64,000 nt of DNA from the NCBI GenBank assembly GCA_930633495.1, contig CAKNFJ010000001.1, positions 3,495,001-3,559,000 on the forward strand, given 5' to 3'. Positions 53,352 to 64,000 of this stretch are shown piece by piece. Within the stretch, counting starts at the first letter, position 1; each line of letters begins with the position of its first letter. A program made the position numbers and the translations under genes. Source of the DNA: Hyphomicrobiales bacterium (GTDB lineage Bacteria; Pseudomonadota; Alphaproteobacteria; Rhizobiales; Beijerinckiaceae). The notes beneath the pieces are model-generated. The model saw nothing but the letters and a program-made list of their open reading frames with translations. It was not told the origin of the DNA and did no database searches.

Positions 53352-53541
53352 TGCGGAGGACGCGGGCGCGGTGGAAACAAAGCGCAAGCAAGCCTCTGAC
53401 GAGACGACGGCCGAACCGCCTTGGCCCCATCCTTGCTGCTGACGCGATGTCGGCACTGAGGGCCGGAGCGGCGAGGAGTGTGGACTGACGGTCTTACCTG
53501 CCGGCTCTAGGCCAGCGGGTTCTGGGAAGCGGGGTTTGACG

Positions 53542-58230
<4,689 letters not shown>

Positions 58231-58329: not shown

Positions 58330-59754
58330 ATGGGCAAGGTCACGGGCTTTCTCGAATTCGACCGGCAGGAGCAGAAGTATCAGCTCGCCGGCGACCGCAT
58401 CCGGCATTTCCGCGAGTTCACGCTCCCGCTGGAGGAGCGCGACATCAAGAAGCAGGCGGCGCGCTGCATGGATTGCGGCATTCCGTTCTGCCACGGGCCG
58501 ACCGGCTGCCCGGTCCATAACCAGATCCCGGACTGGAACGAGCTGGTCTATTCCGGCGGCTGGGAGGATGCGCTGCGCAACCTCCATTCCACCAACAACT
58601 TCCCGGAATTCACCGGCCGCATCTGCCCGGCGCCTTGCGAGGAAGCCTGCACGCTCAACCTCGAGAACATGCCGGTGACGATCAAGACGATCGAGCAGGC
58701 GATCGCCGACAAGGGCTGGGAAGAGGGCTGGATCGCGCCGGAAATCCCGGCCAAGCGTACCGGCAAGCGCATCGCCATCGTCGGCTCGGGCCCGGCCGGC
58801 ATGGCGGCGGCTCAGCAGCTCGCCCGCGTCGGGCACGATGTCCATCTCTATGAGCGCGAGGCCAAGGCCGGCGGCCTGCTGCGCTATGGCATCCCCGACT
58901 TCAAGATGGAAAAGAAGCACATCGACCGCCGGGTGAGGCAGATGGAGGCGGAAGGCGTGACCTTCCACTACAACGCCAATGTCGGCGTGACCCTGCCCTT
59001 CGCCACGCTCGTCGCTGAACATGACGCCGTGCTGATGACGGGCGGCGCGGAAGCGCCGCGCGATCCCGGCCTGCCGGACACCAACCTTGCCGGCGTCCAT
59101 TACGCGATGCCGTACCTGACCCAGCAGAACAAGCGCGTCGGCGGCGAGGACGTTTCCGGCCTGGAGCCGATCCTCGCGGCGGGCAAGCATGTGGTGGTGG
59201 TCGGCGGCGGCGATACGGCGTCGGATTGCGTCGGTACCGCCTTCCGGCAGGGAGCGCTTTCGGTGACGCAGCTCGACATCCGGCCGATGGCGCCGGAGAT
59301 CGAGGACAAGCTCACCGTCTGGCCGTATTGGCCGACGAAGTTCCGCACCTCCTCCTCGCAGGCCGAGGGTGCGGAGCGAGAGTTCCAGGCGGCGACGCTC
59401 GGGCTCGAAGGCCGCAACGGCCGGCTCACCGGCGTCAAATGCGCCCGCGTCGACGAGAAGCGCAAGCCGATCCCCGGCACGGAATTCGTGCTGCAGGCCG
59501 ATCTCTGCTTCCTCGCCATCGGCTTCGCCGGCTCGGTGATCGAGGGCATGATCGCGCAAGCGGGCGTCGGTGTGGACAAGCGCGCCAACGTCGTCGCCAA
59601 TGATCGCGACTACAAGACCAGCGCCGACAAGGTCTTCGTCGCCGGCGACATGCGCCGTGGCCAGTCGCTGGTGGTCTGGGCGATCCGCGAGGGCCGTCAG
59701 GCGGCGCACGCCATCGACAAGGAGCTTATGGGCGCGACGATCCTGCCGGTGTGA
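58330..59754 (+). CDS. gltD: Glutamate synthase small subunit
   Basis: A 474-residue FAD/NADPH oxidoreductase. N-terminal Cys clusters (ARCMDCGIPFCHG, GCPV and CPAPCEEACTL) bind 4Fe-4S centres. IAIVGSGPAGMAAAQQLARVGH is the FAD motif, VVVVGGGDTASDCVGTA the NADPH motif, and VFVAGDMRRGQSLVVWAIREGRQAA the C-terminal FAD segment. It feeds electrons from NADPH to GltB in nitrogen assimilation. GAGAG precedes ATG 58330. It is 99 bases downstream of gltB and belongs to the same operon. Confidence 0.96.
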   Translation: MGKVTGFLEFDRQEQKYQLAGDRIRHFREFTLPLEERDIKKQAARCMDCGIPFCHGPTGCPVHNQIPDWNELVYSGGWEDALRNLHSTNNFPEFTGRICPAPCEEACTLNLENMPVTIKTIEQAIADKGWEEGWIAPEIPAKRTGKRIAIVGSGPAGMAAAQQLARVGHDVHLYEREAKAGGLLRYGIPDFKMEKKHIDRRVRQMEAEGVTFHYNANVGVTLPFATLVAEHDAVLMTGGAEAPRDPGLPDTNLAGVHYAMPYLTQQNKRVGGEDVSGLEPILAAGKHVVVVGGGDTASDCVGTAFRQGALSVTQLDIRPMAPEIEDKLTVWPYWPTKFRTSSSQAEGAEREFQAATLGLEGRNGRLTGVKCARVDEKRKPIPGTEFVLQADLCFLAIGFAGSVIEGMIAQAGVGVDKRANVVANDRDYKTSADKVFVAGDMRRGQSLVVWAIREGRQAAHAIDKELMGATILPV

Positions 59755-59922: not shown

Positions 59923-60945
59923 ATGACGCCGGTTATCTTCACGACTGTCGGCCTTCCCAAAGCGAGGCAGCTCGATGCTTGGCGCGGATGGTTCGAGGGC
60001 TTGTTCGATGTCGAGATCGAGGACCCGCAGGGCGGCTTCGCCGCGACCAGCGAAACCTGGAATCTCGGCAGCTTCGGTCTGAGCCGGGTCCAGGCGCCGA
60101 GACTGCGCGCGCTCCGCACCCCGGCCCTCGTTCGGCGCAATCCCATCGACCACTGGGGGATCGCGATCGGCGGGCAGCGCACATTCGGTGAAACCGGACG
60201 GCAGCGTTCCATCGACGTGCCTGCGGGCATGCCGTTCGTCGCTTCGTTCGGGCGCGAACTGGTCAGCCTTCGCGAAAAGGACGATCGGCTGCAGCTCTAT
60301 CTGCCGCGCGACGGCTTTCCGGAGCTCGTGGCAGTCCTGGAGGGTGCCGAAGGAAGGCCGCTCAGCGGCGCCATGGGAAAACTGCTCGCGGAGTTCGTCT
60401 CCTTGCTGGCACGCAACGCCTCGGTGTTTTCAGACGCCGATCTGCCGGGCCTGCAGACCGCTGTCCGGAGCATGGTGCTTGCCTGTATCGCGCCGTCGCC
60501 CGATCACGACGATCTGGGTGCGACGCCGGTCGCGTTGACGCGCAAGGAAATCGTCAGGCGGATCATTGACCTCAACCTGCGTAGCCCTGCTCTGGGGCCG
60601 GATTTTCTGTGCCGTGAAGCCGGGATGTCGCGCTCGCAGCTCTATCGCCTGTTCGAAAGCGAAGGCGGCGTCAAAAACTACATTCAGCGCCGGCGCCTGA
60701 AGCAGTGCTTTGCCGAATTGTCGGATGGCGCCAACGCTCGCTCGGTCGCTTCCATCGCAGAAGGATTGGGTTTCCTGGACCCGTCCAGCTTCAGCCGATC
60801 CTTCAAGAAGGAGTTCGGCCTGACGCCGAAGGAAGCGATGCACGCAACCCTGTCAGGCATCCCGATGAACGTTGCCAGAGGCGGGGAGTCCGATTCGGAG
60901 GTGCTCAGGTTGCGCGATCTGCTCGGGCAAATCGCAAGCGGCTGA
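59923..60945 (+). CDS. AraC-family transcriptional regulator
   Basis: A 340-residue regulator. The N-terminal 200 residues form an AraC-binding-like domain (DAWRGWFEGLFDVEIEDP, WGIAIGGQRTFGE, MPFVASFGRELVSLREKDDRLQLYLP). The C-terminal helix-turn-helix pair is LGPDFLCREAGMSRSQLYRLFESEGGV and ARSVASIAEGLGFLDPSSFSRSFKKEFGLTPKEA. It stands alone downstream of gltD, with 168 bases between, and converges on the next minus-strand gene. The target is unknown. Confidence 0.87.
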   Translation: MTPVIFTTVGLPKARQLDAWRGWFEGLFDVEIEDPQGGFAATSETWNLGSFGLSRVQAPRLRALRTPALVRRNPIDHWGIAIGGQRTFGETGRQRSIDVPAGMPFVASFGRELVSLREKDDRLQLYLPRDGFPELVAVLEGAEGRPLSGAMGKLLAEFVSLLARNASVFSDADLPGLQTAVRSMVLACIAPSPDHDDLGATPVALTRKEIVRRIIDLNLRSPALGPDFLCREAGMSRSQLYRLFESEGGVKNYIQRRRLKQCFAELSDGANARSVASIAEGLGFLDPSSFSRSFKKEFGLTPKEAMHATLSGIPMNVARGGESDSEVLRLRDLLGQIASG

Positions 60946-60992
60946 GTCCGCGCCGCAGCGCCTTCTGGCGCCGCGGAGATGCGGCATGCCTC

Positions 60993-61538
60993 TTAGACCG
61001 CCTGGTCGAAGAACAGCGAGGATGATGCGCCGGTCGCCGAGGATGTGCCGCTGCCGGTATAGGACGCACCCGTTTCGCTGACCTTCTTCATCAGCTCCTG
61101 CAACAGGGCGGCGATATCCACGTTCCCCGTCGTGCCCGACGAAGCCGAGGCGACGCCGTCCTCATCGTCGTCATTCTTGGTTGCGCCGGGCGGAGGGCCG
61201 GGCGGGGGACCGCCTGCGCCTTGGGGAGGTGCGCTGAAAGTCGCGGAAAAGACACCCCGCAGCTCTTCGGCCTGATCGCTGGTCAAATTGCCTGCCGAGA
61301 CCTGCGCGTCGATCAGGGCATCGATCTTGGCCTTGGGGTCGCCGGACTCCCTAGCGCCCCGATTGCCGCGCGATGCGCCGATGCTGGCATCGATGCTGTC
61401 GAGCGCCGACGAGAGCGCGGATTCATCCTCGGAGGCGATGGCGCCGCTGCTGACCTGGGTCTCGAGCGTCTTCTTCAGCAGTTCGATGGGTGAGGAACGT
61501 TGATAGGCGGCTGACGAGCCTGAAATGGCACTGGTCAT
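60993..61538 (-). CDS. Low-complexity Ser/Gly/Pro-rich hypothetical protein
   Basis: A 181-residue protein without signal peptide. Helical blocks (PIELLKKTLETQVSSGAIASEDESALSSALDSIDASI and KAKIDALIDAQVSAGNLTSDQAEELRGVFSATF) have the look of paired EF-hand-like or DNA-free helical repeats. They are followed by GGPPPGPPPG and an acidic DDDEDG stretch. I have seen similar Ser-rich proteins in Rhizobiales but know no function. AGGGAG precedes ATG 61538. The gene is alone between the AraC and ABC-F genes. Confidence 0.7.
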   Translation of the reverse strand: MTSAISGSSAAYQRSSPIELLKKTLETQVSSGAIASEDESALSSALDSIDASIGASRGNRGARESGDPKAKIDALIDAQVSAGNLTSDQAEELRGVFSATFSAPPQGAGGPPPGPPPGATKNDDDEDGVASASSGTTGNVDIAALLQELMKKVSETGASYTGSGTSSATGASSSLFFDQAV

Positions 61539-61794
61539 GAGAAACTCCCTTGAGCCAAGGCCGTCCTTGGCCATTCCATGACCGCTTTTCCTTGTTAATC
61601 GGTCGTTACGGCCCAGGGGCGAAATCGTTTCAGCGGGATTTCCGAAGAAGCCTGGAAACATTGGAGAAACAAATCGGTCGCTCCGTGCTGCTCCAGCCGC
61701 CCGCGCAATTGCGTGGCCTGCTTCCCAGCCCGTATTCAAGCTTGCCGGCAGGAGGGCCCTGTTCAAACGAACCGGGCCGGCTATGGTGGTGACC

Positions 61795-61893
61795 ATGGAC
61801 ACGAAACAGAAGGGGAAGCGGGCGCCGCGCCGCCGCTTCCATTGCCGCACCCGCGGACCTGTCTGCGCCCCGCGCTTCATCTCGCGGGGCTGA
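61795..61893 (+). CDS. Putative leader peptide upstream of the ABC-F gene
   Basis: A 32-codon ORF, ATG 61795 to TGA 61891-61893, whose product begins MDTKQKGKRAP and ends PRFISRG. It is basic, with nine Arg and three Lys. An in-frame ATG at 61783 would add four residues. The ribosome binding site is weak (GGTGGTGACC). The stop codon lies inside the 5' arm of the terminator hairpin, and the last codons form the right arm of a competing hairpin. This is the geometry of a ribosome-sensed attenuator. It is 77 bases from the ABC-F start. Confidence 0.5.
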   Translation: MDTKQKGKRAPRRRFHCRTRGPVCAPRFISRG

Positions 61894-61930
61894 CCGGGAG
61901 CGCATCGCCGTCTCATCGTCAGCCCTTTTT
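61814..61930 (+). promoter_or_regulatory. Attenuator-like leader of the ABC-F gene
   Basis: Hairpin 0 is GGAAGCGG/CCGCTTCC (61814-61821 with 61833-61840). Hairpin A is GCCCCGCG/CGCGGGGC (61867-61874 with 61883-61890). Hairpin B is GGGCTGAC/GTCAGCCC (61887-61894 with 61918-61925) followed by TTTTT, an intrinsic terminator. A and B share bases 61887-61890, so they exclude each other. A fourth hairpin, GGCGCG/CGCGCC, lies at 61931-61948. A ribosome stalled early in the leader ORF would let A form and block the terminator. Confidence 0.58.
61887..61930 (+). terminator. Intrinsic terminator in the ABC-F leader
   Basis: Perfect eight-base arms (61887-61894 and 61918-61925), with a GAG/CTC helper pair inside, followed by five T residues at 61926-61930. 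It ends 40 bases before the ABC-F start, in the same direction, so it should act as a regulated terminator of that transcript. Confidence 0.6.
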
Positions 61931-61970
61931 GGCGCGCCTTTTCGCGCCGGCCTGACGTCATGAGATTCCG

Positions 61971-63485
61971 ATGTCCCTGATTGCCATCAAAGCCCTTTCC
62001 CTTGTCCGTACCGCACCGCTCTTCGCCGGGCTCGACCTTGCCATCGCCAAGGGAGACCGGCTCGGCCTCGTCGCCGCCAATGGCCGCGGCAAATCCTCGC
62101 TCCTGCGCATCATGGCCGGCATGGAAGAGGCGACCAGCGGAACGCTGACCCGGTCGCGCGGCCTCGTCACCGCCTTCGCGCCGCAAGATCCGCCCGCGCG
62201 CCTCCTATCGATGAGCCTCTACGATGCCGTATGCGACGCGCTTGATGCCGAGGCCGCGGAAACCGAGAGCTGGCGCGTCGACGTGCTGCTCGACGACCTC
62301 ATGGTCGACGAAAGCCTACGGCATCGTCCGGTTTGCAGTCTGTCGGGCGGCTGGCAGCGAACGATGCTGCTGGCCCGAGCCGCGGTGGTCGAGCCGGATC
62401 TGCTGTTGCTGGACGAGCCGACCAACCATCTCGACCTTGAGCGGATCGGTGTGCTGGAGCGTTTCCTTGCGGGGCTGGCGCGCGATTGCGCCGTGATCGC
62501 GGCGAGCCATGACCGGGCCTTCCTCGACGACGTCACGACGCGGACGCTGTTCCTGCGGCCGGTGGAGAGCGTGGATTTCGCCTTGCCCTATTCGCGTGCG
62601 ATCCAGGCTCTGGAGGAGCGCGACGCAGCGCGGGGCCGGCAGTTCGAGAACGACATGCGCAAGGTCAGAGCGTTGCGCCAGCAGGCGGCCAAGTTGAAGA
62701 ATATCGGCATCAATTCCGGTTCCGATCTGCTGGTGGTCAAGACCAGGCAATTATCCGAGCGGGCCGACAGGTTGGAGGAAAATGCCCGGCCGGCCCACAA
62801 GGAACGCTCGGCCGGCGCGATCCGGCTGACCAATGGCGGAACCCATGCCCGGGCGCTCGTCGCGCTCAGGGACACGGTGATCTCGACGCCGGATGAGCGG
62901 CCGCTGTTTCGCACCGGGCAACTCTGGATCGAGAATGGCGACCGGATCGCCCTTCTCGGCGCCAATGGCAGCGGCAAGACGCGGTTCGTCACGCGACTGC
63001 GGGAGGCGCTGCACGGGCAGGATCCCGATATCCGCGCGGCTGCGAGCCTGAAGGCGGGTTTCTCCGGCCAGACGCTTGCGCAGCTCGATATCTGGCCGAC
63101 ACCGTGGGAGGCGGTCAAAGGTACAAGCGACATCGGCGACCAGTGGGCCCGCACGCTGCTGGCTGGAGCGGGGATCGCCAGCGAGGCCCAGAATGCGCCG
63201 CTCAGCCGGCTCTCGGGTGGACAGAGGGCACGGCTCGCCATGTTGCTCCTGCGCCTCGCCCAGCCGAATTTCTATCTGCTGGACGAGCCGACCAACCATC
63301 TCGACATCGAGGGGCAGGACATGCTGGAGCGCGAGCTCGTCGAGCACGGTGCCGCCTGCCTGCTGGTCAGCCACGACCGGGCTTTCGTCCGCGCCGTGGC
63401 GACGCGGTTCTGGGTGATCCTCGGCAAGAAGCTGATCGAGGTCGACGATCCCGATCCGGTGTTCGACCGGCTGATGGCGGGTTGA
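61971..63485 (+). CDS. ABC-F family ATPase, probable ribosome-associated factor
   Basis: A 504-residue soluble protein with two ABC domains and no membrane segment. Walker A motifs are NGRGKSS near residue 36 and GANGSGKTR near 330. The signatures are LSGGWQR near 124 and LSGGQRAR near 415, and each domain has LLDEPTNHLD. The linker between domains (about 190-300) is helical and includes DLLVVKTRQLSERADRLEE, the place that reaches the P-site tRNA in ABC-F factors. At 504 residues it is shorter than Uup or EttA-type housekeeping members and close to antibiotic-resistance ABC-F proteins. The leader attenuator supports a resistance or stress role. Confidence 0.88.
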   Translation: MSLIAIKALSLVRTAPLFAGLDLAIAKGDRLGLVAANGRGKSSLLRIMAGMEEATSGTLTRSRGLVTAFAPQDPPARLLSMSLYDAVCDALDAEAAETESWRVDVLLDDLMVDESLRHRPVCSLSGGWQRTMLLARAAVVEPDLLLLDEPTNHLDLERIGVLERFLAGLARDCAVIAASHDRAFLDDVTTRTLFLRPVESVDFALPYSRAIQALEERDAARGRQFENDMRKVRALRQQAAKLKNIGINSGSDLLVVKTRQLSERADRLEENARPAHKERSAGAIRLTNGGTHARALVALRDTVISTPDERPLFRTGQLWIENGDRIALLGANGSGKTRFVTRLREALHGQDPDIRAAASLKAGFSGQTLAQLDIWPTPWEAVKGTSDIGDQWARTLLAGAGIASEAQNAPLSRLSGGQRARLAMLLLRLAQPNFYLLDEPTNHLDIEGQDMLERELVEHGAACLLVSHDRAFVRAVATRFWVILGKKLIEVDDPDPVFDRLMAG

Positions 63486-63547
63486 GCCGCCCGGCGGTGC
63501 GGGGCACTTCTGGAGCTTGATAACGCGTCGATCGTCAAAAGGCGGGT

Positions 63548-64000
63548 TCAGCGCGGCCAGCGATAGTCGTCGAGCCGGCCGGGAACCGGGTCGGGTGCGA
63601 TGCCCTGGCCGAAGACGCGTTCCAGCTGCATCGCCGCGTCGCCACGCCCTCGTGCTTCGGTGATCGAGGCCAGCAGCGGCTGTTCCGAGCCCGCAGCCTG
63701 TCCGGTCAGCGGCTGGATCGGCCCCGCCAGCGGCCGGACCTGCAGCGCCGGGGGCAGGCCGAGCGTCGGCACGCCGGCGACCATCTGGTCGATCAGGCGT
63801 TCGACGTCGCGAGCCTGCGGTGTCGCGGCAGCCGGCGCGCCGGGATCCGTGGGGACGGGCAGGGCGATGACGCTGTTCTGCGGCGCCGCCTCGATGATGC
63901 GGCGGATCACGAGATCGACGAAATGGGCGGCCTTGCGAGCACCGGCGGCGGTGAAATGGATGCCGTCGCCAAGGCGCAGCCGCATCGGCTGGCCCGAGAC
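63548..64000 (-). CDS. SGNH/DUF459-like hydrolase, 5'-truncated
   Basis: The gene begins beyond the right edge of the window and ends at 63548. The visible 150 or so C-terminal residues start with QPMRLRLGDGIHFTAAGARKAAHFVDLVIRR, where DGIH holds the catalytic Asp-His pair of SGNH/GDSL-type hydrolases, as in DUF459 proteins. A Pro/Ala-rich tail follows, ending in LDDYRWPR. Family members are exported and linked to cell-envelope polysaccharides. The substrate cannot be judged from this part. Confidence 0.72.
   Translation of the reverse strand, partial: VSGQPMRLRLGDGIHFTAAGARKAAHFVDLVIRRIIEAAPQNSVIALPVPTDPGAPAAATPQARDVERLIDQMVAGVPTLGLPPALQVRPLAGPIQPLTGQAAGSEQPLLASITEARGRGDAAMQLERVFGQGIAPDPVPGRLDDYRWPR

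Follow-up and report, generated by a model that had tools for sequence, protein, structure and literature searches.

An ABC-F gene in an alphaproteobacterium is preceded by a short leader open reading frame (ORF) and by RNA hairpins that recur before orthologs of the gene, and this arrangement is more than chance. The gene and its leader lie near the end of the window, by which we mean the whole 64,000-nucleotide stretch of DNA that was analysed. A leader-peptide attenuator had been proposed here in the preliminary description, and the recurrence of leader and hairpins supports the proposal; its alphaproteobacterial setting agrees with the named orthologs. With a probability of about three in four, the switch is a translational attenuator of the ErmC type, in which the helix formerly read as a terminator would serve as the ON helix. 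The proposed switch is supported in comparison by conservation of the peptide, by a first hairpin (segments 1:2) and by covariation of a pairing over the ABC-F start (segments 3:4), and more weakly by the alternative pairing 2:3.

The ABC-F gene and its leader in related genomes

The gene (61971..63485, forward strand) encodes an ABC-F ATPase of 504 aa, identified by Pfam ABC_tran in two stretches, by NCBIfam NF000355, by a structural model and by fold matches. ARE/ribosomal-protection cut-offs are unreached: the best NCBIfam model, NF000355 (ribosomal protection-like ABC-F), gives 275.8 bits against a cut-off of 380, and the protein falls still further below the cut-offs of the Vga, Sal, OptrA, Msr and Lsa models. 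The protein agrees with the definition of an ABC-F protein (two ABC domains, a helical linker and no membrane domain), and in the AlphaFold2 model, which has a mean pLDDT of 89.4, two long linker helices span residues 207-249 and 252-275. ABC-F structures lead the Foldseek matches, and among solved structures the family profile scores highest against 8buu, which the fold listing calls VmlR2. Since EttA, VmlR2, human ABCF1 and PoxtA lie close together in Foldseek, the fold cannot separate housekeeping from resistance proteins. Three more ORFs lie further upstream in the window and were named by eye: 53536-58230 (long and glutamate-synthase-like), 58330-59754 (small-subunit-like) and 59923-60945 (an AraC-like regulator).

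We searched for the ABC-F family in overlapping samples of 41 genomes, 397 genomes of the order, 385 of the class and 388 of the phylum. It occurs in 64 of the 397 order genomes (E<=1e-110), and there are 22 matches among the class genomes (E<=1e-90) and 22 among the phylum genomes (E<=1e-120), the latter all from the class of the window. Twelve plasmid records, from Gemmobacter, Ketogulonicigenium, Sinorhizobium and others, also carry copies. Within one genus (25 genomes, G000-G024), two versions of ABC-F that are about 60% identical are present in eight genomes each and nine genomes have neither, a distribution that suggests horizontal exchange; no genome of this set has both versions in the list of matches. 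Patchy presence, the two versions and the plasmid copies would perhaps suit an accessory, resistance-type gene.

Eighty-two upstream regions were read, 17 from the 41-genome set, six from a contig scan and 59 from the order set. The contig scan used very general patterns, and among the 80 loci that it listed only the first six belong to this ABC-F family. Of these 82 loci, order-level and named orthologs together, 79 have the leader: a search of short ORFs for the motif GP[VGILA].A[LP] detected 74, and five variants (GPDRAL, GPTRAL, GPRYAL, GPFSAL and GPRFAL) were spotted by eye. Outside the 79 are L120, in which the start is mis-set and whose genome (G409) provides the covariance-model match L170; L156, in which the leader and ABC-F are separated by an insertion that measures about 1.5 kb and contains a transposase-like ORF (by eye); and L169, in whose upstream region no leader was seen. 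No leader was seen in the 260 nt read at L232, or upstream of eight class matches of at most 40% identity (L242-L249).

A covariance model of the leader (75 columns) gave 62 matches that score 41 bits or more across the 397 order genomes. The next score is 29 bits, and the first two matches past this gap are the opposite strand of true leaders. All 62 strong matches fall in genomes that carry ABC-F, and cover 62 of the 64 genomes with this gene; 58 of them share the strand of the ABC-F match and precede it by 64-214 nt. In the remaining four, the ABC-F match is in two pieces (G160 and G329), on another contig (G138) or displaced by an insertion (G178). The two ABC-F genomes that have no strong match are G403 and G117, and the latter has a divergent leader (L165). 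In the class sample, 13 of 13 matches of at least 31 bits, the window included, precede the same ABC-F. Four sub-threshold matches of 27-30 bits that were read (L259, L260, L213 and L214) were taken as chance, as they lie within open coding frames or have no visible leader.

In the insertion case (L261, in G178), the leader occupies positions 496-570, the ABC-F match begins at 2119 and an opposite-strand transposase-like ORF (by eye) lies between them. Where ABC-F is in two pieces after a good leader (L183 in G160, L199 in G329), either a broken gene or a sequencing error may be responsible. In three public plasmid records the leader is absent as a listed gene, the PLSDB gene tables being incomplete.

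Reading frame, start signals and conserved core of the leader

The leader ORF, MDTKQKGKRAPRRRFHCRTRGPVCAPRFISRG* (61795..61893, forward strand), runs from an ATG at 61795 to a TGA at 61891-61893 in the sequence and the ORF list, and is kept in orthologs; an extra in-frame ATG lies at 61783. By comparison of codons and start signals, the leader looks like a translated ORF. A Shine-Dalgarno (SD)-like motif with a start codon is present in 71 of 79 leaders, in 65 of the 79 the motif GGAGG is found, and in the 71 SD-bearing loci the start lies 9-15 codons before the conserved Gly. The eight leaders that have no SD-like motif are L001-L006 and L008, all from the subclade of the window, and L145.

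In the window subclade, ATG 61795 is the closest start in frame and lies 20 codons upstream of Gly. A -10-like element, TATGGT (61782..61787, forward strand; TATGAT in L003-L008 and TATGCT in L002), ends 7 nt upstream of this ATG. Row comparison also points to a putative -35-like element, CTGTTC (61759..61764, forward strand); CTGTTC(A) is in the same place in L001 and L004-L008 and absent from L002 and L003. A consensus scan of 60500-64000 listed no promoter. Because the nearest in-frame start lies only 7 nt 3' of TATGGT/TATGAT, a leaderless mRNA is suggested for this subclade, and the leader mRNA of the window may start at ATG 61795, making the leader ORF itself leaderless. Between 61810 and 61824 on the forward strand, an SD-like AAGGGGAAG (61810-61818) followed by GCG (61822-61824) is a possible vestige of the ancestral leader start. 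When rows are set at a fixed distance from the Gly-Pro (GP) codons, this GCG aligns with the GTG of L114, L117 and L230; the GTG start position of relatives is GCG in the window subclade. The window lineage seems to have swapped an SD-led leader start for a leaderless one.

The GP codons (GGA CCT, 61855..61860, forward strand) belong to the core R-x-R-G-P-V-x-A and are the putative stall site according to the codon test and the position scan. Among 68 distinct rows, differing codon pairs are synonymous rather than nonsynonymous in 1311:0 cases for Gly and 1562:0 for Pro, with four synonyms used at each, although the invariance of GP in the 69-row alignment A2 is partly by construction, the rows having been chosen by motif. 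In the same 68 rows, the ratios for the Arg codons 6 and 8 are 1158:561 and 921:612, in contrast to 311:1242 and 98:1982 for codons 7 and 12. Where loci came from model or protein searches, 10 of 12 class loci have GP, L236 reading GS and L238 QP instead, as do 5 of 5 loci from plasmids or the phylum sample. A +x+ pattern stands directly upstream of GP in 57 of 79 leaders, and the N-terminus and the length of the peptide vary among loci.

Divergent leaders include L231 (LQHGPRHAL*), L254 (LQHGPRSALQIRL*) and L145 (LQYGPRYAL*); both L231 and L145 stop immediately after Ala-Leu. In L235-L238 and L250 the leader frame continues through hairpin 1:2 and stops past it (L238 by eye), so that the stop position is not conserved in these loci.

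RNA segments, folding and the proposed switch

Four RNA segments, all on the forward strand, can be delimited in the window. Segment 1 (61867..61874), recognized by fold and covariation, is the 5' arm of hairpin A. Segment 2 (61883..61894) holds the leader stop and contains both the 3' arm of A (61883-61890) and the 5' arm of hairpin B (61887-61894). Segment 3 (61911..61925), delimited by folds and swap tests, consists of an anti-SD part, UCUCAUC, and the 3' arm of B, GUCAGCCC (61918-61925). It is followed by five T (61926..61930), read earlier as a terminator tail, and by a hairpin GGCGCG/CGCGCC (61931..61948) that in the fold is nested within the 3:4 pairing. Segment 4 (61949..61966), which pairs with segment 3, adjoins the ABC-F start and includes a weak SD-like GAGA (61962-61965); a purine SD-like motif lies within segment 4 in 79 of 96 loci.

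Hairpin A, or 1:2, pairs 61867-61874 with 61883-61890 (8 bp) and is present in the minimum-energy fold. Hairpin B, or 2:3, pairs 61887-61894 with 61918-61925 (8 bp, a loop of 23 nt, then T at 61926-61930); it was read from the sequence and is absent from the minimum-energy fold. According to the pair list, segment 4 (61949-61966) pairs with 61910-61925, the 3' arm of B included. By sequence, ORF list and pair list, the leader ORF and both hairpins are placed as the preliminary description claimed, and so are the shared bases 61887-61890 and the leader stop inside the 5' arm of B. Of its scheme of mutually exclusive A and B with five T, the layout stands and the terminator role is not supported; segment 4 and the 3:4 pairing were absent from that reading. 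A fold of 61780-61975, which it had named as a check, reaches -92.7 kcal/mol (z -2.57), lower than most shuffles (3 of 200 as low).

Across loci, hairpin 1:2 is paired in 96.2% of cells versus 88.5% after shuffling, has 63 both-side cells versus 21.4 and a covariation of 0.297 versus 0.153, with 0 of 500 shuffles as good in each case. The pairs changed on both sides and the pair types are no higher than in shuffles (457 and 80 of 500, respectively). For 3:4, partner swaps were as good in 0 of 5000 with 79 loci, 0 of 20000 with 96 loci, and 0 of 20000 both with 36 loci (one per genus) and with 25 loci (about one per family). For 2:3, swaps were as good in 67 of 20000 (n=36) and 199 of 20000 (n=25); with all 79 loci the test is uninformative (4179 of 5000 as good), because both arms are nearly constant. 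The control pairing 2:4 gave no signal, with 3438 of 5000 (79 loci), 14233 of 20000 (n=36) and 11860 of 20000 (n=25). The 36- and 25-locus sets were hand-picked by genus or family labels plus named records, after per-locus energies had been seen, and some members may coincide, as labels of named records were unmatched to unnamed ones. In six very distant loci, chosen by global identity, swaps were as good in 1716 (3:4), 3688 (2:3) and 9263 (2:4) of 20000, and neither 3:4 nor 2:3 reached significance. When partners were shuffled locus by locus, 2:3 reached 5/100 or better in 38 of 79 loci and 3:4 in 40 of 79; at the window locus the pairings were reached by 1 of 100 and 0 of 100 shuffles, respectively. 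Of the pairings compared, the swap tests favour 3:4, at the start region of ABC-F, most strongly. The earlier expectation that ORF and hairpins would be conserved in relatives holds for the ORF, which is kept, and for A, which covaries, and for B it depends on the sample, as given above for 36 and for 79 loci.

In erm attenuators such as ermC, four segments pair as 1:2 and 3:4 in the OFF state, with the SD hidden, and a ribosome stalled on the short leader shifts the RNA to 2:3 and ON. Features of an ErmC-type attenuator found here by computation are a leader with its own start signal, hairpin 1:2 and a 3:4 pairing over the SD and start of the target gene. On this model, the leader peptide would be translated constantly. 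Unless the cell is stressed, either 1:2 would form or the ribosome would run to the stop, and 3:4 would hide the SD region of ABC-F. Under stress, which we infer to be caused by a ribosome-targeting drug, a ribosome would stall with the Gly-Pro-(Val) codons at the P site, covering segment 1 and leaving segment 2 exposed. Segment 2 would then capture segment 3 kinetically, before segment 4 is made, and with segment 4 free ABC-F would be translated. In its presumed protective role, ABC-F would clear stalled or drug-bound ribosomes, and the switch would shut again. The anti-SD part of segment 3 lies within the loop of 2:3, and from their positions 2:3 and 3:4 would need a pseudoknot to form together.

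Truncated transcripts ending after segment 3 were folded after the full-length equilibrium fold had shown no switch in the window. If no ribosome is placed on them, 1:2 prevails (above 0.8 in 61 of 79 loci); with a ribosome at the codon after Pro, 2:3 exceeds 0.5 in 79 of 79 and 0.8 in 74 of 79. In a scan of P-site positions (mean of 79 loci), 2:3 is 0.73-0.92 from Gly to five codons past it, 0.35 one codon before Gly and 0.00-0.13 elsewhere. GP is the 5' edge of this range, which moves by one codon when the assumed 3' edge of the ribosome is changed by 3 nt. In the window, before segment 4 is made and with no ribosome in place, 2:3 (0.66) exceeds 1:2 (0.25), and the scan is less clean, 2:3 also reaching 0.73-0.99 at codons -5 to -3 relative to Gly.

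At full-length equilibrium, a stall raises SD accessibility in 59 of the 79 loci (24 of them gain more than 0.2), and 2:3 exceeds 0.5 in 42, the window not being among them. In the window, 3:4 stays with or without the ribosome mask and SD accessibility is not raised. Since 3:4 is too stable at equilibrium, the switch of the window, if any, must be kinetic, with segment 3 captured before segment 4 is made.

Alternative explanations and related systems

The position scan also bears on the signal. In a classical macrolide stall, which on the pattern of ErmDL would set the P site of a +x+ motif such as R-x-R two codons before Gly, the mean of 2:3 is 0.03 (edge +17) or 0.36 (edge +20); on average, a ribosome there would be too far 5' for segment 1 to be opened. 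Together with a nearly invariant GP between variable flanks, this leaves room for the same switch to answer to another signal: GP may pause the ribosome alone, or when an amino acid or elongation factor runs short. ABC-F itself would then relieve the pause, and the switch would be an autoregulator and not a drug sensor. This reading is compatible with the proposed switch and possible, although rather unlikely, as the patchy presence (64/397), the plasmid copies and the two divergent versions within a genus better suit a resistance-type gene, and +x+ stands just before GP in 57 of 79 leaders.

Mixed control as in cplR or vmlR, in which translational attenuation is joined to premature termination, whether intrinsic or Rho-dependent, while the switch is OFF, is less likely again. 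CplR combines SD sequestration with a terminator (PMC10201436), and a T-rich stretch follows segment 3 in several loci of the window clade; however, no U-run is common to most loci between segments 2 and 4. The purely transcriptional attenuator that had been proposed at first, with B as an intrinsic terminator, A as antiterminator and the leader ribosome in control, fares much worse and is very improbable. Five T do follow B directly in the window, but the loop of B is 23 nt, GCC+TTTTT follows segment 3 in 4 of 96 loci, 11 of the 96 have any TTTTT at all around segment 3, and the covariation of 3:4 would be unexplained. The polarity is also wrong, as a stall at the conserved motif forms B and would stop transcription, turning the gene off. 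B was not listed in a terminator scan that covered loops of 3-8 nt, and the conserved short-loop, GC-rich hairpin with a U-run expected of an intrinsic attenuator was not found. That the leader works as a small protein, with merely incidental RNA structures, is hardly credible. In its favour, the core is conserved at the peptide level and a functional leader peptide, peTrpL, is known from Sinorhizobium (PMC10117765); against it, leaders differ in N-terminus and in length, hairpin 1:2 is encoded by the core and adjoins it, and both 1:2 and 3:4 covary.

Rfam gave no match close to a gathering score for window positions 61500-62200 and five ortholog loci. To our knowledge, the core R-x-R-G-P-V-x-A matches no known erm leader motif. 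Arrest peptides of the SecM type, which belong to longer secreted sensors, have an R-x-G-P-like core at the arrest site, and the present core resembles it as generally described. The system proposed here differs from the erm systems in that its target is an ABC-F gene, its hosts are Alphaproteobacteria and the loop of 2:3 contains the anti-SD part of segment 3; the four-segment layout is shared with ermC, a system that PMC10314930 cites.

The ABC-F leaders cplR, vmlR, vmlR2 and lsaA likewise combine an ABC-F gene with a short upstream ORF (uORF). According to PMC10201436, cplR also sequesters the SD in the OFF state and has an intrinsic terminator, and the uORF consensuses of the group are MR[I/M], MIN, MK[L/Q] and MAGN. 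In contrast, the leaders described here run for 9-20 codons up to a conserved internal motif, and no U-run is common to most loci. In the msrD system, an ABC-F gene is again placed under a drug-stalled leader peptide (MsrDL), with feedback by ABC-F, in that MsrD suppresses induction via its own leader; unlike the present case, it works by transcriptional attenuation, stalls at the stop codon of MYLIFM and is streptococcal (PMC10314930). The peTrpL/trpL system of Sinorhizobium is also alphaproteobacterial and combines a leaderless leader ORF with an attenuator, which in that case is a Trp attenuator of trpE (PMC10117765).

In the papers compared, drug-sensing ABC-F leaders are Gram-positive, and the word alphaproteobacteria is absent from PMC6723617. 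Among the matches listed from the open-licence literature, no alphaproteobacterial ABC-F leader was found, in keeping with the earlier remark that a comparable system in this class would be new. The kind of attenuator is known, and the leader family is apparently new. It is conceivable, at somewhat less than even odds, that these leaders are an undescribed, class-wide group of alphaproteobacterial arrest peptides with the core R-x-R-G-P-V-x-A, which would sense ribosome-targeting drugs, stall at GP and drive an accessory ABC-F, an unrecognised and partly plasmid-borne resistance factor. If this is true, the leaders would offer a ready assay for the role of the ABC-F family and for the inhibitors sensed by these bacteria, and structural studies would gain a candidate for a new arrest motif. 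The 79 leaders form an evolutionary series of a four-segment RNA switch that includes the window lineage with its apparent leaderless start.
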